From Martelella lutilitoris (GTDB taxonomy: Bacteria; Pseudomonadota; Alphaproteobacteria; Rhizobiales; Rhizobiaceae): a DNA stretch of 64,000 nucleotides. The notes below the pieces were generated by a model that did no database searches, had not been told where the DNA came from, and saw only the letters and a list, made by a program, of their open reading frames with translations. Of this stretch, positions 27,929 through 42,234 are shown one piece after another; position 1 is the first letter of the stretch; every line of letters begins with the position of its first letter. Made by a program: the position numbers and the translations under genes. The stretch spans positions 1 to 64,000 of the forward strand of contig NZ_VCLB01000011.1 in NCBI RefSeq assembly GCF_005924265.1. Reading direction: 5' to 3'.

Positions 27929-29188
27929 CTACCGGCCGGAAAACCGGTCGAAGCGCAGGTTCTCAAGGTTCACGGATGGCTTTTGCTGCCCGGCCAGTTC
28001 GGCAATCAGCCGACCCGTCGCCGCCGACTGGGTCAATCCCAGATGGCCGTGGCCGAAGGCGTAGAGCACGTTCGGCGCGGCCTTCGAACGGTCGATCACC
28101 GGCAGGCAGTCCGGCATGGAGGGGCGGAACCCCATCCACCGCTCGCCGCTCTCGGTCTCAAGGCCGGGCAGGAATCGTTTAGCAAGCGTCAGCAATGCCT
28201 CGGCGCGTTTGAAATTCGCCGGCAGGTCGAGACCGCCGAACTCCACCGCACCGCCGACGCGGATACCGGACGACAGCGGCGTGACGACAAAGGAGTGATC
28301 GTTGAAATAAAGCTGGCGCTTCAGCGGGAAGGCCGTCGCCGGCAAGGTGGTGTTGTAGCCACGCTCGGTATCGAGCGGCACCTGCTCGCCAAGGCTTTTC
28401 GCAATCCGCTTCGACCATGCCCCGCAGGCAACCACGACGGTGCGCGCTTCAAGGGCGCCGCCATCGGCAAGGCGGATGCGCGCCCCCGCCTCGGTCGGCT
28501 CGATGGCGGCGGCTTCTCCGATCGTGATCGTGGCGCCGTCCGCCCGTAGGCTTTCGGCGAGCGCGCGGGTAAAGCCGGCCGGATCGGAGACCTGCAGCCC
28601 GTCCTCGCTGTAGATCGCGTGTTCGAACTGAGGCGCGAGACCGGGCTGAAGCATCTCGATCTCGGCGCGGCCGACGCGGTGGAACGCGAAGCCGGCCTCG
28701 CGCTTCCGCGCCCAGTCGGGCGCCGCGGCGGCAAAACTCTTCTCGCTATCATAGAGGTCGAGCGTGCCGGTATTGACGATAAAGGACGCCAGCCGTGCAT
28801 CCTTGCGGACAGCTTCGTATTCGACGACCGCCAGCCGCATCATCGCCGCCTGAACCTTGAGCCCGCGCTCGAAACTGGCCCTGGAGCTCGCCCGCCAGAA
28901 ATGCCAGAGCCAGGGCGCGAGCCTTGCCGCATAGGCCGGGCGAATGGCGAGCGGCCCCAGCGGATCGAGCAGCCAGCCGGGCGCTTTCCAGGTGATTCCG
29001 GGCGCGGGAATCGGCACGATCTCGGGGAAGGCGAGAATGCCGGCATTGCCCGCGCTGGCTCCCGCCGCGATCGCGCTGCGCTCCAGGATCGTGACCTCTC
29101 GCCCGGAAGCCAGAAGATAACGCGCGGCCATGCAGCCGATAATACCGCCACCAATGACGACAACGTCCGCATCAAATGGGTCTTTCAT
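27929..29188 (-). CDS. DadA-like FAD oxidoreductase, likely cis-4-hydroxy-D-proline oxidase
   Basis: A 419-residue flavoprotein of the D-amino-acid dehydrogenase (DAO) family. The FAD-binding motif is VVVIGGGIIGCMAARYLL (residues 9-26) and the C-terminal GFRPSMPDCLPVIDRS plus GHGHLGLTQSAATG close the FAD site, as in DadA. The length is normal for the family. In this context it would oxidise cis-4-hydroxy-D-proline, the epimerase product, to delta1-pyrroline-4-hydroxy-2-carboxylate. General D-amino-acid dehydrogenase is the alternative. The ATG at 29188 has GAGGAA upstream. It lies 152 bp after the second GntR gene on the same strand and may be co-transcribed with it. Confidence 0.9.
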   Translation of the reverse strand: MKDPFDADVVVIGGGIIGCMAARYLLASGREVTILERSAIAAGASAGNAGILAFPEIVPIPAPGITWKAPGWLLDPLGPLAIRPAYAARLAPWLWHFWRASSRASFERGLKVQAAMMRLAVVEYEAVRKDARLASFIVNTGTLDLYDSEKSFAAAAPDWARKREAGFAFHRVGRAEIEMLQPGLAPQFEHAIYSEDGLQVSDPAGFTRALAESLRADGATITIGEAAAIEPTEAGARIRLADGGALEARTVVVACGAWSKRIAKSLGEQVPLDTERGYNTTLPATAFPLKRQLYFNDHSFVVTPLSSGIRVGGAVEFGGLDLPANFKRAEALLTLAKRFLPGLETESGERWMGFRPSMPDCLPVIDRSKAAPNVLYAFGHGHLGLTQSAATGRLIAELAGQQKPSVNLENLRFDRFSGR

Positions 29189-29340
29189 GTGTTCCTCACG
29201 CCGTGGGAACCGATGGTCGCTTGTCGCCGCGACAACCGGCCGACCTGAACCTGCGTCCGCCGGACGTATTCTCCGATCTCGCAGCATCAGGTCCCTGTTG
29301 TGTTGATGTCGTTTGGCGGGCCATTGCCTGGGGCCGCCTC

Positions 29341-30039
29341 TCAGTCCAGTGACAGCGCGCGCGCCTGCTCGGTCTCCCGCGCGAGATATTCCTGTATCTG
29401 CCGCACGATCTGTTCGGCATGATCGACCGCCAAACGGTCAGCCTTTTCGGCATCGCCCGCCTCAATCGCCGCAATGATATCCTCGTGCTCATTAACATAT
29501 TGACGCGGAAGCCGATCCTCGAAAGTGGAATAGTAGAGACGCAGGATACGTCGTCCTTCGTCGAGCAGTCGCGAGAAGAAACCGGTGTAATAGGTATTGC
29601 CCGCAAGCTCGGCGATGGCGACGTGAAACTCGCGATTGGCCTCGATCATGGCGGAGGCGTCCTGGGCCGCCACGGCAGCGACGAATTCGTCCTGGCGGTT
29701 GCGGATCTCAGCCATCAACGCCGGATCATGCGGCGCGCGCGCGGCGGCGCCTCTCGCGCTGATGCGATACATCAGCGTCAATGCTTCGAAATAATACGGC
29801 ATTTCGGCGAAATTGATGGCGGAAACGATGGTGTTGCGATTGGGCAGCGTTGTCACAAGCGCGTCGCTTGCAAGCCTGAGCAGTGCTTCGCGCACCGGCG
29901 TGCGCGACATGCCGAACCGCACCGACAACCTAACCTCGTCCAAGGGACTTCCCGGCGCAAGTTCGATCGCCAGAATTTCCTTGCGCAGCGTCTCGTAAAC
30001 CCTTTGGGTCCCCGACCCGCGCATTTTCGCTTCTGTCAT
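29341..30039 (-). CDS. GntR-family regulator, FCD subfamily (copy 2)
   Basis: A 232-residue regulator closely related to that at 14156-14878. Winged helix-turn-helix at about 11-75 (FGMSRTPVREALLRLASDAL) and a helical FCD domain with the conserved NREFHVAIAELAGN segment. The two proteins share motif order and most recognition-helix residues, so they may bind the same operator. A perfect 14-bp palindrome AAATGTCGACATTT lies 144 bp upstream. The ATG at 30039 follows GGGGAATGGG. It heads the unit that contains the D-hydroxyproline oxidase gene. Whether the two copies act redundantly or on different effectors cannot be told from sequence. Confidence 0.92.
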   Translation of the reverse strand: MTEAKMRGSGTQRVYETLRKEILAIELAPGSPLDEVRLSVRFGMSRTPVREALLRLASDALVTTLPNRNTIVSAINFAEMPYYFEALTLMYRISARGAAARAPHDPALMAEIRNRQDEFVAAVAAQDASAMIEANREFHVAIAELAGNTYYTGFFSRLLDEGRRILRLYYSTFEDRLPRQYVNEHEDIIAAIEAGDAEKADRLAVDHAEQIVRQIQEYLARETEQARALSLD

Positions 30040-30501: not shown

Positions 30502-31668
30502 TCAGGGAGCGTTTGCGGAGGCGTCGGCTCTTCGGGTAGCATCGATTGCGAGCGGTGACGCTCTTCCCCCGTCAAGCAGGGTCAGGCGGGGAGCGAGGTT
30601 GACGACAACGCAAGCGTGGTTGGGATAGATCAGCAGGCGCTGACCGATTTCAAGATCGCTGCCCTTGCGTGCGACCATGCCATGCTCCTCCGACAGTTTT
30701 TCGACGGAAAGCGGCCTGTCGAGCTCCGCACTCCACGCCTCGCCGAACCCCGCGCCCGAACCCGTGCTGTGCGCGCCGAGGTCGGAGCTCAGCGTCTTCG
30801 AACCCGCGTCGACGATGTAGAAATCACGGTTCCTGGAGATGATTGTCGCGGATACGGCGAGAGACAGGCTCTCGCGGCCGACAATGCCGAGGCGGACGGC
30901 GGTCATATCAAAGAAGACATAATTGCCCGGACGGATTTCATCGATGCCGTCGAAACCGTCATTGGCAATGAGGGACGGCGTGCTGCCGACCGAAGTCAGC
31001 GGCACTTCGATGCCGTGGCGCAGGAGCCTCTCCCTGACGTCGAGAAGAATACGGCGCTCCGTCGCGGCCACCGCGCGAATGCCGTCCACATTTCCGGCGC
31101 CATAGGCCTGTCCGGCATGGGACAGCAGCCCGCAGAACGTCAGCAGGGACGCTTCGAGCCTCTGCGCCAGCGCGATACCGGTTTCGGCCAGAGGATCAAC
31201 GCCGCAGCGATGCAAGCCGACATCCACCTTGATGAACACATCAGCCGTCTGCCCGGCCTTTGCGGCGCCGGCCTCCAAGGCTTCAAGGCCCGTCATGCTG
31301 TCAGCGATGAAGCGGACCCGGACGCCGTGCTCACCGGCGAGTGTGAGAAGGCGGGCCACCGGTTCCGGGCGCACCAACGGATAGGCGAGTGTGACCGGCG
31401 AAAAGCCGGCGCGGATGAACACGGCCGCTTCACCGGGATGCGAGGCCGTCACGCCGCTGGCGCCGGCATCGCGCTGCAGGCCGGCAATGGCCAGCGATTT
31501 ATGCGTCTTGATGTGCGGATGAAGCGCTACGCCGCCGTCTGTGGCAATCGCCTGCATGCGCGCGATGTTGGCTTTCAGGCGCGCCGCGTCGACAACGACT
31601 AAGGGCGTTTCGAGCCGCTCCACGCCTTCGAATGCCGGGCGGGCGGCGGTTTCCGCGGTGATGCTCAT
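30502..31668 (-). CDS. PLP-dependent DSD1/D-threonine aldolase-like enzyme
   Basis: A 388-residue fold-type III PLP enzyme (alanine racemase-like barrel). The N-terminal TPLVVVDAARLKANIARM and PHIKTHKS (residues 51-58) hold the PLP lysine. The C-terminal YPNHACVVVN has the His-x-Cys pair that binds Zn in eukaryotic-type D-serine dehydratases; D-threonine aldolases have His-x-Asp here as I recall. So D-serine dehydratase or a related D-3-hydroxyamino acid lyase is somewhat favoured over aldolase. The ATG at 31668 is 4 nt after the stop of the amidohydrolase gene. It is the last gene of an eight-gene operon with a D-carbamoylase, which fits D-amino acid disposal. Confidence 0.85.
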   Translation of the reverse strand: MSITAETAARPAFEGVERLETPLVVVDAARLKANIARMQAIATDGGVALHPHIKTHKSLAIAGLQRDAGASGVTASHPGEAAVFIRAGFSPVTLAYPLVRPEPVARLLTLAGEHGVRVRFIADSMTGLEALEAGAAKAGQTADVFIKVDVGLHRCGVDPLAETGIALAQRLEASLLTFCGLLSHAGQAYGAGNVDGIRAVAATERRILLDVRERLLRHGIEVPLTSVGSTPSLIANDGFDGIDEIRPGNYVFFDMTAVRLGIVGRESLSLAVSATIISRNRDFYIVDAGSKTLSSDLGAHSTGSGAGFGEAWSAELDRPLSVEKLSEEHGMVARKGSDLEIGQRLLIYPNHACVVVNLAPRLTLLDGGRASPLAIDATRRADASANAP

Positions 31669-31672
31669 GGCC

Positions 31673-33514
31673 TTACCAGACGATCCTGTGCGTTTCGCCC
31701 GTCGCGACATTGACGAGCCCCTCCGGCGCGTAATTAGACGGCGCGACCAGAACCCAGCGCCAGGGCGCGCAGGTCAGCGTCGCGAAGGCAAGTCGTTCGG
31801 GAAAGCCGGCCCACCAGCGCGGCGAGGAGGACGGCTCGAACATCCATTCGATTTTTTCGCCTTCCGCGTAGAGCTTCTGCATGTCGGCATCGAGATCTTC
31901 GGCGGAGCGTTGCGACATCAGCCCGGCGATCTCGTAGCGCACGGTGGCGACCACCGTGTTGTCGCGCACCAGCGCCCAGCCGCCGCCGGTTTCGATCAGC
32001 GCGTTGACAGCCGTCGCCATCGCCCGATCGGAAGAGCCGACGCACCAGATATTATGCTTGTCATGGGCAAGCGAGCTTGCCAGCGCGCAGTCCGGCGTCT
32101 TCGGTCCCGTGCCGGCCCAGAACATTTTCGAGACGGACTTTTTGCCGGAAAACCGGTCGACGATGGCGAATTTGGTGATGTTTTGCGCCGTGTCGCGCTG
32201 AACGAGGCCGCCCTCCACCGGAAGTTCATAGGTCAGGAAGTCGTCTTCCCAATGGAACGGGCGCAACACCGCCGCCGTCATCGTTTCGCGACCGGCCTCG
32301 GCATGGATCGCGAAGTCAGCGGCCTGGAAGGTGCCGCCGGTATCAACCGTGTTGCAGGCCCAGTCCGGCCAGTCGATGGCGGGGACGGGAACAATGTAGT
32401 CCTTGCCGCGGGAGACCTGTTTTCCATCGGCCCAGACCTCGGCGATCTCGAAGTTCTCAAGATCCGACAGAAGCACGGCATCGGCAAAACGGCCCGGTGC
32501 GATCATGCCGACCCAGGGCGTCAGCCGCATGTGCCGGGCGGGATTGATTGTCACGCACTGAATGGCGATTTCGGGCGCCAGGCCGGACTGGATGGCGAGC
32601 CGGACATTGTAGTCGGTCGCGCCCTTCTCCAGCGTCTCGGAGGCGGAACGGTCATCGGTGGCAAAGGCAATCTGCGACCAGTCGGCAAGACCGCGCTCCA
32701 GGAGACCCTTGATCACATCGGGCATGGAATGCGGCCGGAGCTCGGCAAACAGCCCGTGGGTGAGCTTGTCCCAGAACTCCTCCGCCGTCCAAGCCTCGTG
32801 GTCGGATGCCAGACCCGCGGCGGCAAAGGCATTGATCGTTGGCAGGTCCCGGATGCCTGCGGCATGGCCCTCGACAACGCCGCGTGCGGCGAAGGTGGCC
32901 TCGATCATGCCCCAGAGCCGTTCGTGGGACCCGTTTTCCGGGTTCCAGACCGCCGGCCAGTCCATCACCTCGTCGAGACCCGCGACCATCAGGCTGCCGG
33001 CCAGAAAATCGCGCTGCTCGTCATGACCGAGATAGCCGCCGCCATGCTCATAGGCCGTCGGCGGCACGGCGGAACCGGGAAGCGGGAAGATCTTCAGCGG
33101 CGAGCCGTGTTGGCGCGCCGTCATCCAGAAATCGAGCGTCTTCGAACCGCGCACATTGGAGAATTCATGGCTTGCCTCGCAGGTCCAGGTATTGCCGCGC
33201 GGCATTACCAGCGCGGCCTCCCATTCCGGCGTCAGGTGCGAACTTTCGATATGCTTGTGGACTTCTCCGAGGCCGGGAATGGCCATCAGGTCGAGGCGCT
33301 CGTCGATGACATCGCATGTCCCTGGCCACGACCCGGCGGGTCCGGCATAGGCGATGCGGTCGCCGGCGATGACGATCTCCTGCTTGTCGGCCCATGTGCG
33401 GGTTGCCGTGTCGAGCAGCCAGCCGACGCGCAGGATACGGTCGGCCGGCGCCTTTCCAAGCGCGACAAGGGTCAGCCGCTGACGCAGCCGGACTTCGGAT
33501 TTTGCATCGATCAT
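31673..33514 (-). CDS. adenine deaminase-like amidohydrolase
   Basis: A 613-residue metal-dependent amidohydrolase with the domain order of adenine deaminases: small beta-domain, TIM barrel and C-terminal Ade-specific domain. The first metal motif reads GLGEVHKHIESSHLTP, where classical enzymes have D-x-H-x-H-I-E-S. Here the DxH is EVHKH, so the aspartate is replaced. Later GHAAG and ATDDRSA (barrel Asp) are conserved, as is NPARHMRL. The activity may therefore be hydrolysis of another cyclic amide or N-carbamoyl compound. The ATG overlaps the XRE-cupin stop (ATGA). Its operon with D-carbamoylase suggests ring opening upstream of carbamoyl hydrolysis; this is inference. Confidence 0.82.
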   Translation of the reverse strand: MIDAKSEVRLRQRLTLVALGKAPADRILRVGWLLDTATRTWADKQEIVIAGDRIAYAGPAGSWPGTCDVIDERLDLMAIPGLGEVHKHIESSHLTPEWEAALVMPRGNTWTCEASHEFSNVRGSKTLDFWMTARQHGSPLKIFPLPGSAVPPTAYEHGGGYLGHDEQRDFLAGSLMVAGLDEVMDWPAVWNPENGSHERLWGMIEATFAARGVVEGHAAGIRDLPTINAFAAAGLASDHEAWTAEEFWDKLTHGLFAELRPHSMPDVIKGLLERGLADWSQIAFATDDRSASETLEKGATDYNVRLAIQSGLAPEIAIQCVTINPARHMRLTPWVGMIAPGRFADAVLLSDLENFEIAEVWADGKQVSRGKDYIVPVPAIDWPDWACNTVDTGGTFQAADFAIHAEAGRETMTAAVLRPFHWEDDFLTYELPVEGGLVQRDTAQNITKFAIVDRFSGKKSVSKMFWAGTGPKTPDCALASSLAHDKHNIWCVGSSDRAMATAVNALIETGGGWALVRDNTVVATVRYEIAGLMSQRSAEDLDADMQKLYAEGEKIEWMFEPSSSPRWWAGFPERLAFATLTCAPWRWVLVAPSNYAPEGLVNVATGETHRIVW

Positions 33515-34143
33515 GATGACACCGTGAGGTGGTCCGGCGCCTCGCCGGAACCGGAATAGCAGATGGAAAGAATGCGGGCGTTGCCGGGGCCAGTGGCGTA
33601 GAACCCGTGCTCCGATGCCGCGTCGAAATAGACGGTGTCGCCTTCGGCCAGGATGACCGGGGCGTAGGGGACCATCTCGAAGATCACATCGCCGGAGAGC
33701 ACATAGACGAACTCCTCGCCGCTGTGGACGCTGCGGGCCGGCTCGGTGTTTTCGGCTGCCGGCGGAATGTCGATCACCATCGGCGTCAGGGCCTTGGCGG
33801 CGAGTTCGGTGGCGAGCAGCCGGTAGACGCCCATGTCGTTTTCGAGCCGCTTGCCCTCCCCCCGGCGATTGATGGTCCGGGCGGCGCGGGCGAAGCTTGG
33901 GCGACCGCCCCGCCCCTCCAGGAGGTCGGCAAAATCGACGCCGAGTCCGCTCGAAAGCCGGGTCAGCACCGAAAAGGCCGGCTGGCTCTGGCCGTTCTCG
34001 ATCTTGGAGAGCGCCGAGATCGAGACGCCGGTGCGCTTCGACATTTCGGCAAGCGTCCAGCCGTTCTCCCGGCGCATGTCCGACAGGATACGGGCAACCG
34101 AACCGGCTTCGTGCTCGGCCGTCACGCCTTCAGCGTCTGGCAT
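33511..34143 (-). CDS. XRE-cupin transcriptional regulator
   Basis: A 210-residue regulator with an N-terminal XRE helix-turn-helix (LAEMSKRTGVSISALSKIEN, about 31-50) and a C-terminal cupin-2 domain (HSGEEFVYVLSGDVIFEM near 140-157). Proteins of this layout (PuuR, SutR types) often repress amino-acid or polyamine catabolic genes. The start at 34143 has a strong GGGAGGAG upstream. It lies inside the operon it probably controls, 36 nt after the D-carbamoylase gene and overlapping the next gene by 4 nt. A GGAAAA-N3-TTTTCC palindrome in the operon leader (38919-38933) is a candidate binding site. Confidence 0.92.
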   Translation of the reverse strand: MPDAEGVTAEHEAGSVARILSDMRRENGWTLAEMSKRTGVSISALSKIENGQSQPAFSVLTRLSSGLGVDFADLLEGRGGRPSFARAARTINRRGEGKRLENDMGVYRLLATELAAKALTPMVIDIPPAAENTEPARSVHSGEEFVYVLSGDVIFEMVPYAPVILAEGDTVYFDAASEHGFYATGPGNARILSICYSGSGEAPDHLTVSS

Positions 34144-34179
34144 TTCTGTCTCCTCCCGGTTGCTACAGTCTTCATGCGT

Positions 34180-35112
34180 TCAGTCCGATACCGGTCCCCT
34201 GGTCTCGACGATCAGCCGGTAGGCTTCCGGTTCGCGGTGGCGGGCGAAGTCGAAAATCGTCTTGCGGTAAAGGGCCGCCATGTCGAGATCGCATTTCGCC
34301 ACGATCACCTCGTCGGCGGTTGAGGTTGCCATGGCGACGATCTGACCGGACGGGGCGACGATCATCGACTGGCCGATCAAATTCGAGCCTTCCTCGTGTC
34401 CCGCCTTCGCCGTCGCGATCACCCAGTTGGAATTCTGGTAGGCGCCGGCCTGGATCGACAGCTGGTTGTGGAACTGCGTCAGGCTGTCGAAATCGAAATC
34501 GCCGGTATGGTCGTCGGGCGTGTTGTAGCCGACGAGGATCATTTCCGAGCCCTTCAGCGCCATGACCCGATAGGTCTCCGGCCAGCGGCGGTCGTTGCAG
34601 ATCGCCATGCCGATGCGCGTTCCCATGGTCTCGAAGACGTTGAAGCCGAGATTGCCGGGCTCGAAATAGTATTTTTCCAGATGCTGCGAGACCATGTCCG
34701 GCTGCGGCCTGTCCCAGCCCGGCAGGTGGATCTTGCGGTATTTGCCGACAATGCCACCGTCGCGGTCGACAAGAATGGCGGTGTTGTAGCGGTGCTTCAC
34801 GCCGTTTTCGACGGCGAGTTCCGCATAGCCGAGATAGAAGCCGATCTTCAGCCTTTTGGCCGCCTCGAACAGCGGCAGCGTCTCCGGACCGGGCATCTCC
34901 TTCTCATAAAACGCGTCGATCTCATCCGGGTCGGTCATGTGCCAGCGCGGAAAGAAGGTCGTCAGCGTCAGTTCCGGAAACACGACAAGTTCCGCGACCC
35001 TGGATGCTGCCTCGGCGAGAAGCGCGATCAGGCGCTCGACAACGGCCTTGCGGGTGTCCGAGCGGGCGATCGGCCCCATCTGGGCCGCGGCTGCAACGAT
35101 GGTCCGGCTCAT
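34180..35112 (-). CDS. N-carbamoyl-D-amino acid amidohydrolase (D-carbamoylase)
   Basis: A 310-residue nitrilase-superfamily hydrolase that cleaves N-carbamoyl-D-amino acids to D-amino acid, CO2 and ammonia. The catalytic triad falls at exactly the positions of the Agrobacterium enzyme: E47 in VFPELTLTTFFPRW, K127 in KYRKIHLPG and C172 in MAICNDRRWPE. HLEKYYFEPGNLGF is also conserved. The length and spacing leave little doubt about family, though side-chain preference is unknown. The ATG at 35112 has GGGAGG upstream and overlaps the ATPase stop by 4 nt. It lies in one operon with an importer, so an external N-carbamoyl or hydantoin-derived compound is the likely substrate. Confidence 0.93.
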   Translation of the reverse strand: MSRTIVAAAAQMGPIARSDTRKAVVERLIALLAEAASRVAELVVFPELTLTTFFPRWHMTDPDEIDAFYEKEMPGPETLPLFEAAKRLKIGFYLGYAELAVENGVKHRYNTAILVDRDGGIVGKYRKIHLPGWDRPQPDMVSQHLEKYYFEPGNLGFNVFETMGTRIGMAICNDRRWPETYRVMALKGSEMILVGYNTPDDHTGDFDFDSLTQFHNQLSIQAGAYQNSNWVIATAKAGHEEGSNLIGQSMIVAPSGQIVAMATSTADEVIVAKCDLDMAALYRKTIFDFARHREPEAYRLIVETRGPVSD

Positions 35113-36185
35113 GGCGCCTCCCCCTCGTCTTCCAGAATGCAGCAATGGGCGAAGTCGAAGGCAAGGCCGACATTCCGCTCCGCCTCAATCGGGGTCGAAA
35201 GCGAACCATTGGCGATCAGAATGCCTGCGGCGGTCTCGATCTTGTACTGATAGGCGCGGCCGAGATAGGAACGCATATGGGACTTGCCCGCAATCGCATT
35301 GTCACGACCCGCATCCGTCAGGGTCAGGCCTTCCGGGCGGGCGCCGATGACAAAACGCTCCGGCAGCGGGCCGGTCTTGCGCTCGTCGAGGTCGATCCTT
35401 TCGCCGCCCGCAAGCTCCGCCGTCACCGTCTGACCGTTGCGGGCGATGACATGCATCGCAATCAGATTGTCGAAGCCGACGAAGCGGGCGACGAAGGCGT
35501 TGACCGGTCGGGTATAGAGCACTTCCGGCGTGTCGAGTTGAACGATATTGCCGGCATTCATGATCGCCACGCGGTCGGAAATGGAAAAGGCTTCTTCCTG
35601 GTCGTGCGTCACATAGATGGCGGTGCGGCGGTTGGCCTTCTGCAGCTCACGGATTTCCACCCGCATGTCGACCCGCAGCTTGGCATCGAGATTGGAAAGC
35701 GGCTCGTCGAACATCAGGAGCGGCGGATCGATGGCAAGCGCGCGGGCCACGGCGACGCGCTGGCGCTGCCCGCCGGAAAGGGCGGCGGGCAGGCGGTCGG
35801 CAAAGCCTGAAAGCCCGACGCGTTCCAGCATGCCGGCCACGCGTTTCTCGCGTTCGGCGGGCGCCATCTTGCGCTGCTTCAGCCCGAAACCGACATTTTC
35901 GGCGACGGTCAGATGCGGGAACAGCGCGTAGTTCTGGAACACAATGCCGGCATCGCGCTTGTGCGGCGGCAGGCCGGTGACATCGCGCCCGGCAACCGAG
36001 ATGTGCCCGCCCGTCGGCTGCAGGAAGCCGGCGAGCAGCCGCAGCGTGGTGGTCTTGCCGCAGCCGCTGGAGCCAAGAAGCGAGACCAGTTCTCCCTCGC
36101 CGACGGAAAGGTTCAGCCCGTGCAGAACCTGCGTCGTTCCGTAATGGGCGGTGACATTGTTCAGGATGACGGCGTTCTCAGCCAT
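35109..36185 (-). CDS. polyamine-type ABC transporter ATP-binding protein (PotA type)
   Basis: A 358-residue importer ATPase. Walker A GSSGCGKTT at about 35-43, signature LSGGQRQRVAVAR near 135-147, Walker B LLMFDEPLSNLDAKLR near 155-170, and a C-terminal TOBE domain (IGARPEGLTL). The ATG at 36185 has AGGAG 5 nt upstream; the long in-frame extension to 36839 is only antisense-free read-through of the permease in another frame. It follows the PotC-type permease by 8 nt and overlaps the D-carbamoylase gene by 4 nt, so transport and hydrolysis are co-expressed. Confidence 0.94.
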   Translation of the reverse strand: MAENAVILNNVTAHYGTTQVLHGLNLSVGEGELVSLLGSSGCGKTTTLRLLAGFLQPTGGHISVAGRDVTGLPPHKRDAGIVFQNYALFPHLTVAENVGFGLKQRKMAPAEREKRVAGMLERVGLSGFADRLPAALSGGQRQRVAVARALAIDPPLLMFDEPLSNLDAKLRVDMRVEIRELQKANRRTAIYVTHDQEEAFSISDRVAIMNAGNIVQLDTPEVLYTRPVNAFVARFVGFDNLIAMHVIARNGQTVTAELAGGERIDLDERKTGPLPERFVIGARPEGLTLTDAGRDNAIAGKSHMRSYLGRAYQYKIETAAGILIANGSLSTPIEAERNVGLAFDFAHCCILEDEGEAP

Positions 36186-36193
36186 GGAAACTC

Positions 36194-36985
36194 CTATTGA
36201 ACGGTCTTCGACAGACCGAGGCTGCGTTCGATCAGCATCATGACGAGAATGGTGACGCCCATCAGCAGCACGGATACGGCGCTGACGGTCGGGTCGAAAA
36301 ACTGCTGGACATAGGTGAAGACCTCGATCGGCAGGGTGGAGATGCCGGGTCCGGTCAGGAACAGCGCCACGGCCATGTCGTTCAGCGAGGTGATGAAGGC
36401 GAGCACCATGCCGGCAATCACGCCGGAGCGGATATTGGGCAGGACAATGGTCCAGAACGCCTTGACCGGATGCATGCCGAGGCTGATGGCGGCTTCCTGG
36501 ATGGAAAAGTCGAAGCCTGCAAGGCTCGCCCCGATCACCCGCACCATATAGGGCAGGCACAAGATCGCGTGACCAAGGATGAGCGATGGCAGGATCGGCA
36601 GCTGGAACTGGACGATCAGCGTCTTCAGGAGCGAAAAGCCGAAGACGATTTCCGGAATGAAGAACGGCAGGAAGAACACCGAACCGTACCAGCCGGGGAT
36701 CTTCATCTTGTAGCGGGTCAGGGCATAGGCTGCCGCCAACCCGGTCACGAGCGCGATCAGTGTGCCGCCAATGGCCACCTGCATCGATATGATGAAGGTG
36801 TCGAGAAAGCCGCTGTGATTGAACACATTGGCATACCATTTGAGCGTGAAGCCCTGCGGCGGGAAGGCAAGATAGGGCGTGTCAGACACGGAAGTGCCGA
36901 TAACGATCACGATCGGCCCCGCCAGAAACAGGATGACCAGCCAACCGAAAAGCTTCGAGAGCGGATGAATACGACGACCGGTCAA
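36194..36985 (-). CDS. polyamine-type ABC transporter permease (PotC type)
   Basis: A 263-residue inner-membrane permease with six hydrophobic segments. The cytoplasmic coupling loop is QEAAISLGMHPVKAFWTIVL, the PotC/PotB-type EAA region. The ATG overlaps the stop of the upstream permease (ATGA, 36982-36985). The pair of permeases, the PotA-type ATPase and the binding protein make a complete importer of the spermidine/putrescine/2-aminoethylphosphonate class. Because the operon encodes N-carbamoyl-D-amino acid hydrolysis, the cargo need not be a polyamine. Confidence 0.94.
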   Translation of the reverse strand: MTGRRIHPLSKLFGWLVILFLAGPIVIVIGTSVSDTPYLAFPPQGFTLKWYANVFNHSGFLDTFIISMQVAIGGTLIALVTGLAAAYALTRYKMKIPGWYGSVFFLPFFIPEIVFGFSLLKTLIVQFQLPILPSLILGHAILCLPYMVRVIGASLAGFDFSIQEAAISLGMHPVKAFWTIVLPNIRSGVIAGMVLAFITSLNDMAVALFLTGPGISTLPIEVFTYVQQFFDPTVSAVSVLLMGVTILVMMLIERSLGLSKTVQ

Positions 36986-37842
36986 TGGACGGCCCTCCGT
37001 GCCGAGATGCGGCTGGCGATCGTGCCGAGCACGACAACGCAGAAGATCGCGGTTGCCATCATGATGGCGGCGATGGTGTTGGCAACGCCCCAGTCGAACG
37101 AGATCATCGCCTTCTGGTAGAGCAGTGTCGCGAGCGTCATCTGCGGTTCACCGCCGAGCAATGTCGGGGTGACGAAGGTGGCGAGCGAACCGGTGAACAC
37201 CAGGATCGAGCCGACGATCATGCCGGGCACGGCCAGCGGCAGCGTCACCTGGAAGAAGACAGATATCGGCGAGGCGCCGAGCGAACCGGCCGCGAGATAG
37301 AGGTCATCCTCGATGTTCTCCAGCACGCCGACCAGCGACAGGATCATCAGCGGCGTGAACAGATAGGCAAGGCCCGCAATAACGGCGCCTTGCGTAAAGA
37401 GCATTTCCAAGGGTTCGCTGATGATGCCGAGCTTCATCAGCGCGGTATTGACCACGCCGTTGCGACCGAGGATCGCCATGAAGGAAAAGGAACGCACAAC
37501 CACACTCGTCAGCAGCGGGAAGACCGACAGGATCAGCAGGACGCGCTTCACCCCTTGCGACGCATTGGCGATCATATAGGCGCCGCCGAAACCGAGAATA
37601 AGCGCCGTCAGCGTCGACAGGAAGGCGATGCGGAACGAACGGATCATCACCGTTCGGTTATAGCTGTCGGCGAAGAAATCGCGGTAGTTGGCGAAAAGCC
37701 CGGCCGGATTGGAGAAGCTTTCGGCAAGCGTGCCCGCCACCGGAATGACCAGGATGAAAAGCAGCACCGCGGTTGCCGGCAGAACCAGCAACCACGGGCC
37801 AAGCGCGCCGATGCGCTGAACGATGGAGACGCGGGACGACAA
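36982..37842 (-). CDS. polyamine-type ABC transporter permease (PotB type), TTG start
   Basis: A 286-residue inner-membrane permease with six hydrophobic segments and the coupling loop LYLAAGSLGASPISVFFQVTL. No ATG or GTG precedes the first membrane segment; the first usable start is TTG at 37842, 11 nt after the binding-protein stop. A TTG start and poor ribosome site suggest lower translation than the binding protein, as is common for permeases. It overlaps the PotC-type gene by 4 nt. Confidence 0.92.
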   Translation of the reverse strand: MSSRVSIVQRIGALGPWLLVLPATAVLLFILVIPVAGTLAESFSNPAGLFANYRDFFADSYNRTVMIRSFRIAFLSTLTALILGFGGAYMIANASQGVKRVLLILSVFPLLTSVVVRSFSFMAILGRNGVVNTALMKLGIISEPLEMLFTQGAVIAGLAYLFTPLMILSLVGVLENIEDDLYLAAGSLGASPISVFFQVTLPLAVPGMIVGSILVFTGSLATFVTPTLLGGEPQMTLATLLYQKAMISFDWGVANTIAAIMMATAIFCVVVLGTIASRISARRAVH

Positions 37843-37853
37843 TTTGGATTCCG

Positions 37854-38891
37854 TCAGCGCCCGAAGACTTCGTTCCAGCGGCGTTCCCAGTCGTCATTGA
37901 CGTCGAGAAGTTTGTCGTAGGGCGTCGGTTGCATGCTGAGTACGGCCTTTTCGCCATAGACGAGTTGGGATGCCTGTTCAGGCGTCAGTTCCACGGTCTT
38001 GTTGACCGGGCCGGAACCGCTGACCAGTTCGATCGCCGCATCCTTCTGTGCCTGCATCGAAATCGAGAAATCGATGAAGGCGAGCGCCAGCTCCTTGTTC
38101 TTGGCGTTCTTCGGGATGTTGTAGGTGTTCATCATCCGGAAATCGCCTTCGGAAAGCTCGGCCCAGCCGATATTCGGATTGGCGGCCTGGATGGCCGGAA
38201 AGGCATAGTCCTGCGCCAGACCGATGAAGGCCTCGCCGGTCGAAAGCAGATTGGTGAGCTCCGAGCCCGAGGAAAATGTCTTGACGATGTTCGGCTTCAG
38301 CTCGGCCATCTTCGCAAAGGCGGTATCGGGGTCTTCGAAGGCATCCGAGCCGGCGCATTTGCCGGCCATCATCACCGTCAGCGGACCGCCGGTCGTGTTG
38401 AAGGCCGGCATGGCGACGGCGCCGGCAAAATCGTCACGCCACAGATCGCACCACGAGGTGATCGGCGTGTCGGTGCGGGTCTTGTCATAGACGATGCCAT
38501 AGCGGCCGAAGGTGTAGGCCGGACCATAATCGCCCTGCGGGTTCTTGGCGGCATCGTAGAGCTCATCGAAATTGGAGAGCTTGGAGGAGTCGATCGTCTC
38601 GAATGCGCCCTGATTGATGCCGATCTGGGAGAACTTGTCGGTCAGCAGGATGACGTCGACGCCGCCGCGAATGCGGGCCTTGTTGAGACGCTCCGGCGCA
38701 CCGCCGGTTTCCACGACGATCTTGACATCATGCGCCTTTTCGAAGGGCTCGAAGATGAAGGGCTCGTAGAAATCGTTGGAATAGCCCCAGTTGGAAACGA
38801 CGAAGGTTTCCTCGGCATGAGCCGAAACGGCGGGAAGGGCGAGAAGCGCGGCAACGGCGCTTGCCCGGAGAAAAGACTTGGAAAGCGGCAT
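37854..38891 (-). CDS. polyamine-type ABC transporter binding protein
   Basis: A 345-residue periplasmic binding protein of the PotD/AfuA class. The Sec signal peptide is about 26 residues (cleavage after SAHA), then EETFVVSNWGYSNDFYEPFI. The central GRYGIVYDKTRTDTP and FIGLAQDYAFPAIQ segments are typical of the class. It is the first gene of an eight-gene minus operon ending at 30502. Ligand is unknown; the enzymes in the operon suggest an N-carbamoyl or cyclic amide compound. The GGAGG ribosome site is visible upstream of the ATG. Confidence 0.92.
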   Translation of the reverse strand: MPLSKSFLRASAVAALLALPAVSAHAEETFVVSNWGYSNDFYEPFIFEPFEKAHDVKIVVETGGAPERLNKARIRGGVDVILLTDKFSQIGINQGAFETIDSSKLSNFDELYDAAKNPQGDYGPAYTFGRYGIVYDKTRTDTPITSWCDLWRDDFAGAVAMPAFNTTGGPLTVMMAGKCAGSDAFEDPDTAFAKMAELKPNIVKTFSSGSELTNLLSTGEAFIGLAQDYAFPAIQAANPNIGWAELSEGDFRMMNTYNIPKNAKNKELALAFIDFSISMQAQKDAAIELVSGSGPVNKTVELTPEQASQLVYGEKAVLSMQPTPYDKLLDVNDDWERRWNEVFGR

Positions 38892-39464: not shown

Positions 39465-39468
39465 TCAT
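39226..39468 (-). CDS. doubtful 80-residue ORF coupled to the aldehyde dehydrogenase stop
   Basis: An ORF of 80 codons whose ATG overlaps the TGA of the aldehyde dehydrogenase gene (ATGA, 39465-39468), the arrangement seen in translationally coupled genes. The product has no recognised domain; its C-terminal half (LVPDFRAIASLFGQGFGIAL) is only vaguely like the effector domain of LysR-type regulators and could be debris of one. Base composition and the absence of a family argue for a non-coding or relic origin. Reported with low confidence because of the overlap alone. Confidence 0.2.
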   Translation of the reverse strand: MKDACLPKKAMKQDKPFTLMGGKGQCSGRTEQELSPRTHMNIWRLVPDFRAIASLFGQGFGIALVHNKNVPMFLRAEPFR

Positions 39469-40925
39469 CGTTGCACGGTCACAAGATGGTCCGTGGTGAA
39501 CTCCTCGATGATCCAGTGACCGTTGAAGCGGCCAAGGCCGGAGTTTTTTTCGCCGCCGAACATCACGTGTGGAAAATCATGGATCGTGATGTCGTTAATG
39601 TGGGTCATTCCCGCTTCCACGCTCTGAGCGAAACGCATTCCGCGCTGCTCGTCTCCGGTGATCACCGCGCTTGAGAGCCCGTATTCGGTATCGTTGGCGA
39701 AAGCGAGCGCTTCGCCTTCGTCGGCGGCGCGGATCACCGGGGCGACGGGCCCGAATATCTCCGTCTGCGCCAGGCGCGAGTGATGGGCGACGTCGGCAAA
39801 GACGTGCGGCGGCACGATCCGCCCCTCCACCGCGCCGGAGACGCGCAGATCGAAACCCTGCTGGCGACCGGACTCGATCAGTCCGGTGACGGACTGGACC
39901 TGCGCATCATTGCACAGAGGTCCGATCATCGTATCCTCGGCATTCGGGTCACCACATTTGATGCCCGACACCGCTGCGCAATAGGCATCCAGGAAATCGT
40001 CATAGAGCGCTTTATCGACAATGATGCGATTGGTGCTCATGCAGATCTGCCCGCAATGCAGGAAACGTCCGACAAGCGCGGCATTGACGGCCGTGGCAAT
40101 GTCGGCGTCATCGAGAATGACGAGCGGCGCATTGCCGCCAAGCTCCAGACCAAGCTTTTTCAACCGGCTTGAACCGGCGGCGACCCGCGCGATTCGCTGG
40201 CCGACCTCGGTCGAGCCGGTAAAGCTGATGATCCGCGGGATCGGATGGGCGCAGAAGGCATCGCCAATCTCCGACCCTGCGCCGATCACCACATTGAGAA
40301 CGCCGGCGGGCAGGCCTGCTTCCTCGTAGATCTTCGCCAGAAGAAGACCGCCGGTCACCGGCGTGTCGCTCGCGGGCTTGAGCACCACCGCATTGCCGAG
40401 CGCAATGGCCGGCGCGACCGAACGGTTGGAGAGATGCAGCGGAAAATTCCACGGGCTGATGACCCCGATCACCCCCACAGGCTTGCGGTAGACGCGCGCC
40501 TCCTTTCCCGGGTGATCGACCGGCATGATCATGCCATGCATCAGGTAGGGCATGCTGGCGGCTTCGGCCATGCCGGCGCGAACCGCCTCGAACTCGGCCG
40601 TGGCTTTCATCCGCGTGGAACCGGATTCGCGGATAACCCAGCCGATGATTTCGGCGCGCCGGCTGTCGAGAATGCCGACCGCGTTCTGGAAGATCGCCGC
40701 CCGTTCCTTCGGAAGGGCGAGCGCCCAGGCTTTCTGCGCCGCGCGCGCGGCCTCATAGGCCCTGTCGAGATCGTCCCGCCCCGCCATGGCGATCCGGGTC
40801 AGCAAGCTGTCGTCGTAGGGGTTGATATCCTCGAGCTCGCGCATCGCCGAACCGGCGCACCACTGCCCGTTGATATATTGCCCCGTGAAGCCCTCATAGG
40901 CCGGCGATGATGTCTGCGCTTTCAT
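39465..40925 (-). CDS. aldehyde dehydrogenase, benzaldehyde/vanillin type
   Basis: A 486-residue NAD(P)-dependent dehydrogenase. Catalytic C295 is in HCGQICMSTNR and the base E261 in LELGGNAP; the cofactor turn is SFTGSTEVG (234-242). The HCGQIC(M) form is typical of vanillin/benzaldehyde/salicylaldehyde dehydrogenases, which oxidise aromatic aldehydes to acids. The ATG at 40925 has GGAGGAAA upstream. It is the last gene of the minus operon with the TRAP transporter and aromatic ring enzymes and would use the aldehyde formed by the Zn alcohol dehydrogenase (52947-54074). Confidence 0.92.
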   Translation of the reverse strand: MKAQTSSPAYEGFTGQYINGQWCAGSAMRELEDINPYDDSLLTRIAMAGRDDLDRAYEAARAAQKAWALALPKERAAIFQNAVGILDSRRAEIIGWVIRESGSTRMKATAEFEAVRAGMAEAASMPYLMHGMIMPVDHPGKEARVYRKPVGVIGVISPWNFPLHLSNRSVAPAIALGNAVVLKPASDTPVTGGLLLAKIYEEAGLPAGVLNVVIGAGSEIGDAFCAHPIPRIISFTGSTEVGQRIARVAAGSSRLKKLGLELGGNAPLVILDDADIATAVNAALVGRFLHCGQICMSTNRIIVDKALYDDFLDAYCAAVSGIKCGDPNAEDTMIGPLCNDAQVQSVTGLIESGRQQGFDLRVSGAVEGRIVPPHVFADVAHHSRLAQTEIFGPVAPVIRAADEGEALAFANDTEYGLSSAVITGDEQRGMRFAQSVEAGMTHINDITIHDFPHVMFGGEKNSGLGRFNGHWIIEEFTTDHLVTVQR

Positions 40926-40962
40926 GGTTTCCTCCATACGCTCCTGAAATACATCAGGTTAA

Positions 40963-42234
40963 TTACAATCCGGCGACCGAGGGCAACCAGACAGAAAGGG
41001 CAGGCAGCAGGATGATGATCGCCAGAACCACCAGGAAGGCCGCGAGAAACGGCAACGCGCCGCGAAACACCTGCATCATCTTCAACCCCGTGGCATCCAT
41101 GGCGAGATAGAGCCCCGGCCCAACGGGCGGCGATACCAACCCGGTCAGCGTGGCGATCGCCAGCACCACGCCGAAATGCACCGGATCGACGCCGAATTGG
41201 CCGGCGATCGGCAACAGCACCGGGACGGTCACGATCAGCACGCCGATCCCGTCGAGAAACATCCCCAGGACGAACACTGCGGCACAGACAAGAACGAGAA
41301 AGCTTACCTGTCCAATCGCGACGGAGGCGATCCCGCGCGCGAGCATATCCGGCACGGCCTCATAGGCCAGCGTCCAGCCGAGAAGCGTGGCAAAGCCGAT
41401 CAACATGATGATCGAAGCGGAGGACAGCACGACATTGTGCATGATCGGTACGAAATCGCGAAGCCCGAGCCGGCGATAGACCACCGTCGACAGCACGAGC
41501 GCGACCACCGCCGCCAGCGCTCCGGCTTCCGTCGGCGTCATGGCGCCAGAGACGACGCCCCAGATGATCGTCAGCGGAATGAGCCCCGGCAGCGCATCCG
41601 CCGCGATGTCGCGCCAGGTTCCGCCCGGAAGCCGGCTCTCGTCCACCTCCGGCAGATGCGACTTCGACAGCCAGACCGTCACAAAGAAGGCTGCCATGAG
41701 CAACAGGCCGGGAATGAGCCCGGCAATGAACAGCGCCGCCACCGACTGATAGGCCAGAACGCCATAGATGATCATCAGCATCGAGGGCGGAATGATCGGC
41801 CCCAGAAGCCCGGTGGCGACAGTCAGGCCGGTGGCAAACTGACGATTGTAGCCCTGCCGCTCCATTTCCGGCACGATGGAGCGCGACATGATCGCGATCT
41901 GCGCGGTCGCCGAACCGAGAATGGCGGCGGCGAATGCGTTTGTCAGCACGTTGACGAAGGCCAATCCGCCGCGCATCCGGCCGACGATCCGCATCGATGT
42001 GCGGATCAGCCGCTCGGTAATGCCGCCCCGGTTCATGATCTCGCCCACCAGCATATAGAGCGGGATGGCCAGAAACCCGTTGGCTTCGATGCCTTTCACC
42101 GATTGCACGAGAAAACTGTCGAACAGGACCGAGGCGTCATTGGTCCATGCGAACACAATCGCCGCCATCAGCAAAAGAAAGACGATCGGCAGGCCGAGAC
42201 ACAGGAAGAGAAAGAAGGCGGCCAGTGTGATCAT
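40963..42234 (-). CDS. dctM: TRAP transporter large permease (DctM)
   Basis: A 423-residue membrane protein with about 12 hydrophobic segments of the TRAP large-subunit family. PSMLMIIYGVLAYQSVAALFIAG and the C-terminal LTGLVSPPVGPGLYLAMDA are conserved in DctM proteins. It forms the channel that couples import to the sodium gradient. Its ATG overlaps the DctQ stop (ATGA). With DctQ and DctP it gives a full organic-acid importer encoded among aromatic ring-cleavage genes, so an aromatic acid is the likely cargo. Confidence 0.94.
   Translation of the reverse strand: MITLAAFFLFLCLGLPIVFLLLMAAIVFAWTNDASVLFDSFLVQSVKGIEANGFLAIPLYMLVGEIMNRGGITERLIRTSMRIVGRMRGGLAFVNVLTNAFAAAILGSATAQIAIMSRSIVPEMERQGYNRQFATGLTVATGLLGPIIPPSMLMIIYGVLAYQSVAALFIAGLIPGLLLMAAFFVTVWLSKSHLPEVDESRLPGGTWRDIAADALPGLIPLTIIWGVVSGAMTPTEAGALAAVVALVLSTVVYRRLGLRDFVPIMHNVVLSSASIIMLIGFATLLGWTLAYEAVPDMLARGIASVAIGQVSFLVLVCAAVFVLGMFLDGIGVLIVTVPVLLPIAGQFGVDPVHFGVVLAIATLTGLVSPPVGPGLYLAMDATGLKMMQVFRGALPFLAAFLVVLAIIILLPALSVWLPSVAGL

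Follow-up and report, generated by a model that had tools for sequence, protein, structure and literature searches.

A conserved catabolic operon of Martelella lutilitoris joins a divergent adenine deaminase relative to a carbamoylase and a DSD1-like enzyme, and may act on t6A-type nucleosides

Gene content and conservation of the operon

The stretch of DNA analyzed here (the window, 64,000 nucleotides) covers positions 1 to 64,000 of contig NZ_VCLB01000011.1 of Martelella lutilitoris, and our subject is an operon of eight co-directional minus-strand genes in it, running from 38891 to 30502, which encode an ATP-binding cassette (ABC) importer, a carbamoylase, a regulator, an adenine deaminase-like (Ade-like) amidohydrolase and a pyridoxal 5′-phosphate (PLP) enzyme. 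The original prediction, made from the sequence alone, had described eight genes overlapping or lying within 36 nt of each other, and recalculated coordinates agreed with it (gaps of −4 to 36 nt; in the order of transcription 11, −4, 2, −4, 36, −4 and 4 nt). The genes are, in the same order:

37854..38891, minus strand: periplasmic substrate-binding protein (SBP), PotD/PhnS-like (SBP_bac_8), from family matches
36982..37842, minus strand: ABC permease, PotB/PotH-like, from family matches
36194..36985, minus strand: ABC permease, PotC-like, from family matches
35109..36191, minus strand: ABC ATPase, PotA/PhnT-like, from family matches
34180..35112, minus strand: N-carbamoyl-D-amino-acid hydrolase-type enzyme (CN_hydrolase), from family and PDB matches, with Glu47-Lys127-Cys172 present
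33511..34143, minus strand: XRE-cupin transcriptional regulator, from family matches
31673..33514, minus strand: Ade-like amidohydrolase of a separate clade with the motif EVHKH (Adenine_deam_C and Amidohydro_1), proposed to be an N6-(aminoacylcarbamoyl)adenine hydrolase
30502..31668, minus strand: PLP enzyme with His-x-Cys, DSD1-like, of the D-threo-3-hydroxyaspartate dehydratase / D-serine dehydratase type (Ala_racemase_N and D-ser_dehydrat); its reading frame is open as far as 31710

The nearest models for the four importer proteins were those of Pot/Phn systems, and the earlier designation of a polyamine-type importer therefore holds for the family but not for the function, as none of the eight genes scored above the cut-off for any polyamine-degrading enzyme (the carbamoylase gave 138 bits against the N-carbamoylputrescine amidase model, with a cut-off of 410). 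Polyamine use was rejected on these grounds, although the importer family would fit it.

When 84,980 species genomes were scanned, 381 relatives of the Ade-like enzyme emerged, from which the best 80 loci (designated by L numbers) were taken with up to 10 kb on either side; neighbouring genes were counted by six-frame search, a simple gene caller having missed genes. The full order SBP-permease-permease-ATPase-carbamoylase-XRE-Ade-DSD1 was found in 11 of the 80 loci in addition to the window, namely in five Martelella, Neorhizobium petrolearium, Chelativorans sp., Rhizobium sp. RM, Aquamicrobium sp. LC103, Agrobacterium vitis and Nitratireductor aestuarii. Since the full order recurs in this way, its conservation exceeds chance and a lack of co-occurrence in other genomes is excluded. 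This is a real, conserved catabolic operon.

The XRE-cupin regulator was present in all 13 of the 80 loci where a carbamoylase adjoins the Ade-like gene. Among the variants, L110, a metagenome-assembled genome, carries carbamoylase-XRE-Ade-DSD1 with a divergent BMP-type importer replacing the Pot-type one; in L105 (Cohaesibacter marisflavi), L037 and L038 an M20 carbamoylase-family gene takes the place of DSD1, and the latter two cluster with L105 in the Ade-like tree; L142 has Ade-DSD1 alone. The window, these 13 loci and two further genomes make up 16 carbamoylase operons among 101 copies of the Ade-like clade, and all 16 lie inside a single supported clade (42 rows) of a 99-row tree, which was made by a quick method, rooted at its midpoint and drawn with two identical rows left out.

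As controls, we took 27 carbamoylase loci without an Ade-like gene, which were high-ranking matches and not a random draw. Within about 10 kb of these carbamoylases, neither DSD1 (0/27) nor Ade (0/27) nor a nucleoside hydrolase (0/27) was found. Because no control locus shows either of the former two, the association of DSD1 and Ade is special to this operon and not a general trait of such carbamoylases.

On the same strand directly downstream of the operon lie genes for a GntR regulator and a DadA-like oxidase (27929-30039), which were rejected as operon members, no gene so labelled being found in the Martelella loci L099-L103. Upstream and also on the same strand, an aldehyde dehydrogenase and the large permease of a tripartite ATP-independent periplasmic (TRAP) transporter were assigned by reading of the open reading frames (39465-42234).

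Active sites and fold of the three enzymes

Of 297 genomes sampled from the order, 145 had a match to the Ade-like enzyme at 1e-30. Only 20 copies, in 17 of the 297 genomes, were 62-100% identical to it, and the next matches listed were at most 37% identical; since identity jumps from at least 62% to at most 37%, the enzyme is, at the level of sequence, a clade of its own. The unusual first metal motif that had been pointed out earlier, with Glu where Asp was expected, proved to be a clade property: all 48 clade sequences compared had E-V-H-K-H, whereas the other Ade sequences had D-x-H-M/I-H (9/9), giving Glu and Asp, respectively, at the first position in every row, with both His residues kept. 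Glu84 and Lys87 are the clade-specific invariant residues. Arg289, next to the general base and following the TDD motif, corresponds to Ser or Cys in 8 of the 9 other Ade rows, while the ninth and most distant row also has Arg. The HxH, Glu, His, His, Asp set of metal ligands (H86, H88, E182, H217, H239 and D287, with presumed roles assigned by homology) was invariant in all 57 alignment rows.

The adenine contacts of the adenine deaminase Atu4426 are given in a passage of PMC12133300 as Arg260, Asp289 and His94, and its general base as Asp290. These residues align to R260, D287, H88 and D288 of the window enzyme (with a numbering offset of 3 taken from the alignment), and none of the 48 clade members deviates at these positions. 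An AlphaFold model built on 57 sequences (predicted local distance difference test score 90.2) matched adenine deaminase 3nqb with Z 45.8 over 578 residues at 30% identity, followed by the next structural family with Z 29.6 over 325 residues; of the 50 structures listed, none but adenine deaminase matched over the whole length. As the contacts, ligands and fold of adenine deaminase are all kept, we infer that the substrate has an adenine ring.

These conserved features would also suit a plain, diverged adenine deaminase beside a carbamoylase/DSD1 pair that handles an unrelated compound, and the best NCBIfam match was indeed TIGR01178 (ade; 270.7 bits, cut-off 472.5). The shortfall in this score does not discriminate and is weak evidence on the question, because a second Ade of the same genome, a close Atu4426 relative with 824 bits to 3nqb, falls below the cut-off too (380.9 bits). 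The presence of this relative elsewhere in the genome, the clade-invariant Glu84 and Lys87, and Arg289 in contrast to 8 of the 9 other Ade rows make a plain deaminase improbable; an ordinary adenine deaminase, which the original prediction had named as one of two outcomes that would overturn it, is argued against on sequence grounds, namely by the separate clade, its specific residues and the second Ade.

Regarding the partner enzymes, the carbamoylase was predicted to be of the D-type, and its best PDB matches were N-carbamoyl-D-amino-acid hydrolases (3.2e-113). Its residues E47, K127 and C172, which all 16 operon copies share, correspond to the Glu-Lys-Cys catalytic triad that an excerpt of PMC11503299 describes for this hydrolase. 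The PLP enzyme matched PF14031 with 65.3 bits (cut-off 22), and the His-x-Cys noted earlier was found as PNHxC in 14 of 14 orthologues. We take this motif to be the metal site. Orthologues in the carbamoylase operons and L142 were 50-76% identical, and one 50% relative (genome G050) showed no linkage to an Ade-like gene. The hydroxyaspartate (BhcC) pathway was considered and rejected, as the PLP enzyme scored 122.6 bits against the BhcC model NF045642 (cut-off 690).

Several other arrangements of the Ade-like gene were observed. In Faunimonas pinastri (L041/L163), two paralogues with 71% and 62% identity to the window enzyme have a creatininase-family gene between them and adjoin a xanthine/uracil-type permease. 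In L113, L115, L116, L117 and L118, the Ade-like gene is followed by a creatinase-type M24 hydrolase, which could replace the carbamoylase, with an AdhE-like aldehyde/alcohol dehydrogenase flanking (labels from family search in L113 and from clustering in L115-L118). In L128, L132 and L134, the Ade-like gene adjoins a xanthine-dehydrogenase-type enzyme (by reading) and a TRZ/ATZ amidohydrolase. The neighbouring TRZ/ATZ amidohydrolase (d7/d29 group) was rejected as a candidate NdmH, since the CQxxN motif was absent from the 14 sequences shown.

Neighbouring genes and the proposed pathway

In the 80 loci, a nucleoside hydrolase was found in 37 and a phosphoribosyltransferase in 24, and 6 had a BMP binding protein or permease (the family assignments were checked; the BMP counts are confined to these two parts, as the ATPase label also matched ordinary ABC ATPases). 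As a background, 61 genomes of the order held 28 nucleoside hydrolase genes, in 16 genomes; these 61 differ from the genomes of the 80 loci, many of which are closely related. The nucleoside hydrolase directly adjoins the carbamoylase operon in L122, L105, L038 and L037 (4/16), and a BMP importer replaces the Pot-type one in L110 and lies just downstream in L125 (2/16). In the genome of M. lutilitoris itself, contig 12 carries an SBP-permease-permease-ATPase-nucleoside hydrolase-Ade module, whose Ade is the close Atu4426 relative, 30% identical to the window enzyme, and whose importer shares 32-54% identity with that of the window, protein by protein (SBP: 32%). This module (L182, 95000-109000; 4609-13300 therein) also includes a LacI-like regulator (by reading) and a divergent M20 amidohydrolase. 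On contig 18, another nucleoside hydrolase is 63% identical to that of L122 (Aquamicrobium).

According to the original prediction, the Ade-like enzyme opens a ring, the product is decarbamoylated to a D-amino acid, and the DSD1-like enzyme removes this. Such an opening of a cyclic ureide, either a dihydropyrimidine or a hydantoin (5-(1-hydroxyethyl)hydantoin perhaps), would yield an N-carbamoyl-D-amino acid and would accord with the two back-end enzymes, which come from families known for D-amino acids, and with the M20 carbamoylase-family enzyme in place of DSD1 in L037, L038 and L105, as if both enantiomers occur. Within about 10 kb of the 27 control carbamoylases there were hydantoinase-like genes in 6 cases (a label checked by family search on two of the genes), M20 carbamoylase-type genes in 8 and BMP parts in 1; hydantoinase is the direct neighbour in L091, L094 and L204. 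The carbamoylase of L091, the nearest full-length one not belonging to the operon (68%), has a true D-hydantoinase-family gene beside it. On the other hand, no hydantoinase was detected among the eight operon genes by family search, and a hydantoinase-like gene was near 1 of the 80 clade loci and 1 of the 16 carbamoylase operons (L099). The ligand set of adenine deaminase, Glu182 included, and its contacts to adenine are moreover retained in the enzyme, adenine deaminase is its sole whole-length structural match among those listed, and ring opening would leave unexplained the nucleoside hydrolase and BMP neighbours, beside which the clade also has phosphoribosyltransferases. We therefore regard a cyclic-ureide substrate as quite unlikely: the N-carbamoyl/hydroxy-amino-acid end of the predicted pathway stands, while its ring-opening start is probably wrong.

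Other D-carbamoylase genes lie in different surroundings. A second one in the genome of M. lutilitoris (L095, contig 11, 8178-19158), 59% identical to that of the window, adjoins an M20 carbamoylase-type gene. A Pot-like importer is also present there, as is a gene of the D-hydantoinase family, and this is probably a separate hydantoin-type cluster. In L096 and L097, a D-carbamoylase adjoins an M20 carbamoylase-type gene together with TRAP transporter-like genes. A further gene there reads like a diaminopropionate ammonia-lyase and is presumably part of another ureide cluster (putative labels).

We propose, with a probability of roughly 0.4, that the operon imports and degrades adenine compounds with an amino acid attached to N6 via a carbamoyl (ureido) link, most likely N6-threonylcarbamoyladenosine (t6A) or its cyclic form (ct6A) from tRNA turnover. 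This substrate was chosen because its three building blocks, adenine, a ureido group and a β-hydroxy amino acid, are those expected of the Ade-like enzyme, the carbamoylase and the PLP enzyme, respectively. We know of no other natural nucleoside in which the three occur together; willardiine-, lupinic-acid-, guanidinohydantoin- and dihydrouridine-type substrates were rejected, as none of them is known to combine adenine, ureide and β-hydroxy amino acid. In t6A, threonine is joined to N6 of A37; the modification is found in tRNAs from all three domains, and ct6A is biologically a hydantoin (PMC7694415).

Gene content, synteny, protein families, active-site conservation, fold and nucleoside-type neighbours are observations, and from them we infer every reaction and substrate of the following scheme. 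The ABC importer would take up t6A-family nucleosides or bases, and the ribose would be stripped by a nucleoside hydrolase, whose gene adjoins the operon in some genomes but lies elsewhere in that of M. lutilitoris. The Ade-like enzyme would then add water at C6 of adenine to give hypoxanthine and N-carbamoyl-threonine, the carbamoylase would convert the latter to threonine, CO2 and ammonia, and the HxC-type PLP enzyme would dehydrate or cleave the β-hydroxy amino acid; the XRE-cupin protein may sense a pathway intermediate. A dedicated bacterial pathway for t6A/ct6A, in which an Ade relative cuts the C6-N6 bond before the carbamoylase and a threonine-destroying PLP enzyme act, is thus put forward tentatively. 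Chemically, N-carbamoyl-threonine should be a better leaving group than ammonia in an attack at C6. There is a precedent in YerA/Bh0637, for which a passage of PMC12133300 reports loss of a substituted amine from C6 with removal of N6-methyl.

Some observations weigh against this proposal. Most Ade-like clade loci have neither a carbamoylase nor DSD1, and the Ade-like enzyme may therefore act on a different substrate or on a wider range; the 80 loci were taken from the 381 for their similarity, many are close relatives, and they are no random sample. The four operon-adjacent nucleoside hydrolases represent two lineages (L105, L038 and L037 being one) and are not in the window, the BMP importer stands beside 2 of 16 operons versus 1 of 27 controls, and upstream of the L099 operon lie a partial hydantoinase-like gene and one of the M20 carbamoylase type. 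There is also the stereochemistry. t6A is built with L-threonine, and DSD1-family enzymes act on D-amino acids. D-Carbamoylases are likewise described as acting on N-carbamoyl-D-amino acids (PMC11503299). Either the members of this operon changed their specificity, or the amino acid arrives as the D-allo epimer via the hydantoin form. ct6A may epimerize to the D-allo-threonine form, although one literature passage uses 'epimerization' for the hydantoin/oxazolone isomers and does not confirm it. Where a locus carries an M20 carbamoylase as well as a nitrilase-type one, this would suit a mixture of epimers.

A wider specificity could mean that the Ade-like enzyme removes other N6 substituents, i.e. 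methylated, isopentenyl, succinyl or other acyl ones, and that one compound of this range, or a second one brought in by the same importer, is what the carbamoylase and PLP enzyme handle. The clade extends well beyond the carbamoylase operon (16/101 copies), its other members adjoin TRZ/ATZ-type amidohydrolases, cytidine deaminase, creatininase-family and M20 enzymes, and dedicated enzymes for alkylated bases have precedents in YerA and NdmH (excerpts of PMC12133300 and PMC13054789). However, carbamoylase, XRE-cupin, Ade-like and DSD1 genes are linked across genera with their ends overlapping or nearly so, which argues for one pathway; we consider the broader alternative less likely than a t6A route.

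No paper tying t6A to a catabolic gene cluster was found among the open-licence literature matches listed. If degradation of t6A is correct, a tRNA modification of all domains of life would be used as food by means of specific enzymes, and the nucleoside should be freed wherever RNA decays because t6A is in tRNAs of the three domains (according to the same portion of PMC7694415). This would explain an adenine deaminase relative beside a carbamoylase and a hydroxy-amino-acid PLP enzyme, and would suggest what some of the industrially used D-carbamoylases do in nature. Judging by the best 80 of the 381 relatives, the wider Ade-like clade would then consist of hydrolases of N6-modified adenines, a function open to testing in a group that annotation pipelines would probably label adenine deaminase.

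Relation to known systems

The closest known enzyme is Ade (Atu4426, 3nqb), with which the Ade-like protein shares the whole-length fold, the metal-ligand columns, the general base Asp and the equivalents of Arg260 and His94, whereas E-V-H-K-H, Arg289 after TDD and the company of a carbamoylase and a PLP enzyme set it apart. The N6-methyladenine/N6-methyladenosine deaminases Bh0637 and YerA are likewise Ade relatives and a precedent for amine loss at C6; their genuine substrate is said to be debated (both from the excerpt of PMC12133300). Unlike them, the window enzyme is proposed to act on a ureide, and of YerA only the C-terminal domain (9jql) appeared in the PDB match list, as a weak match (E 0.14). 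NdmH, the N2,N2-dimethylguanine hydrolase among AtzB relatives, is also an amidohydrolase-superfamily enzyme that takes a modified amine off a modified nucleobase (passage of PMC13054789), but it belongs to another subgroup of the superfamily and acts on N2 of guanine, not N6 of adenine. D-Hydantoinase/D-carbamoylase (hyu) operons have the same carbamoylase family and triad, some of them (L091) with an ABC importer, whereas here Ade-like and DSD1-like enzymes stand in place of the hydantoinase. Finally, the PLP enzyme resembles D-threo-3-hydroxyaspartate dehydratase and D-serine dehydratase (3wqc, 3anu) in its Ala_racemase_N and D-ser_dehydrat domains and in His-x-Cys.

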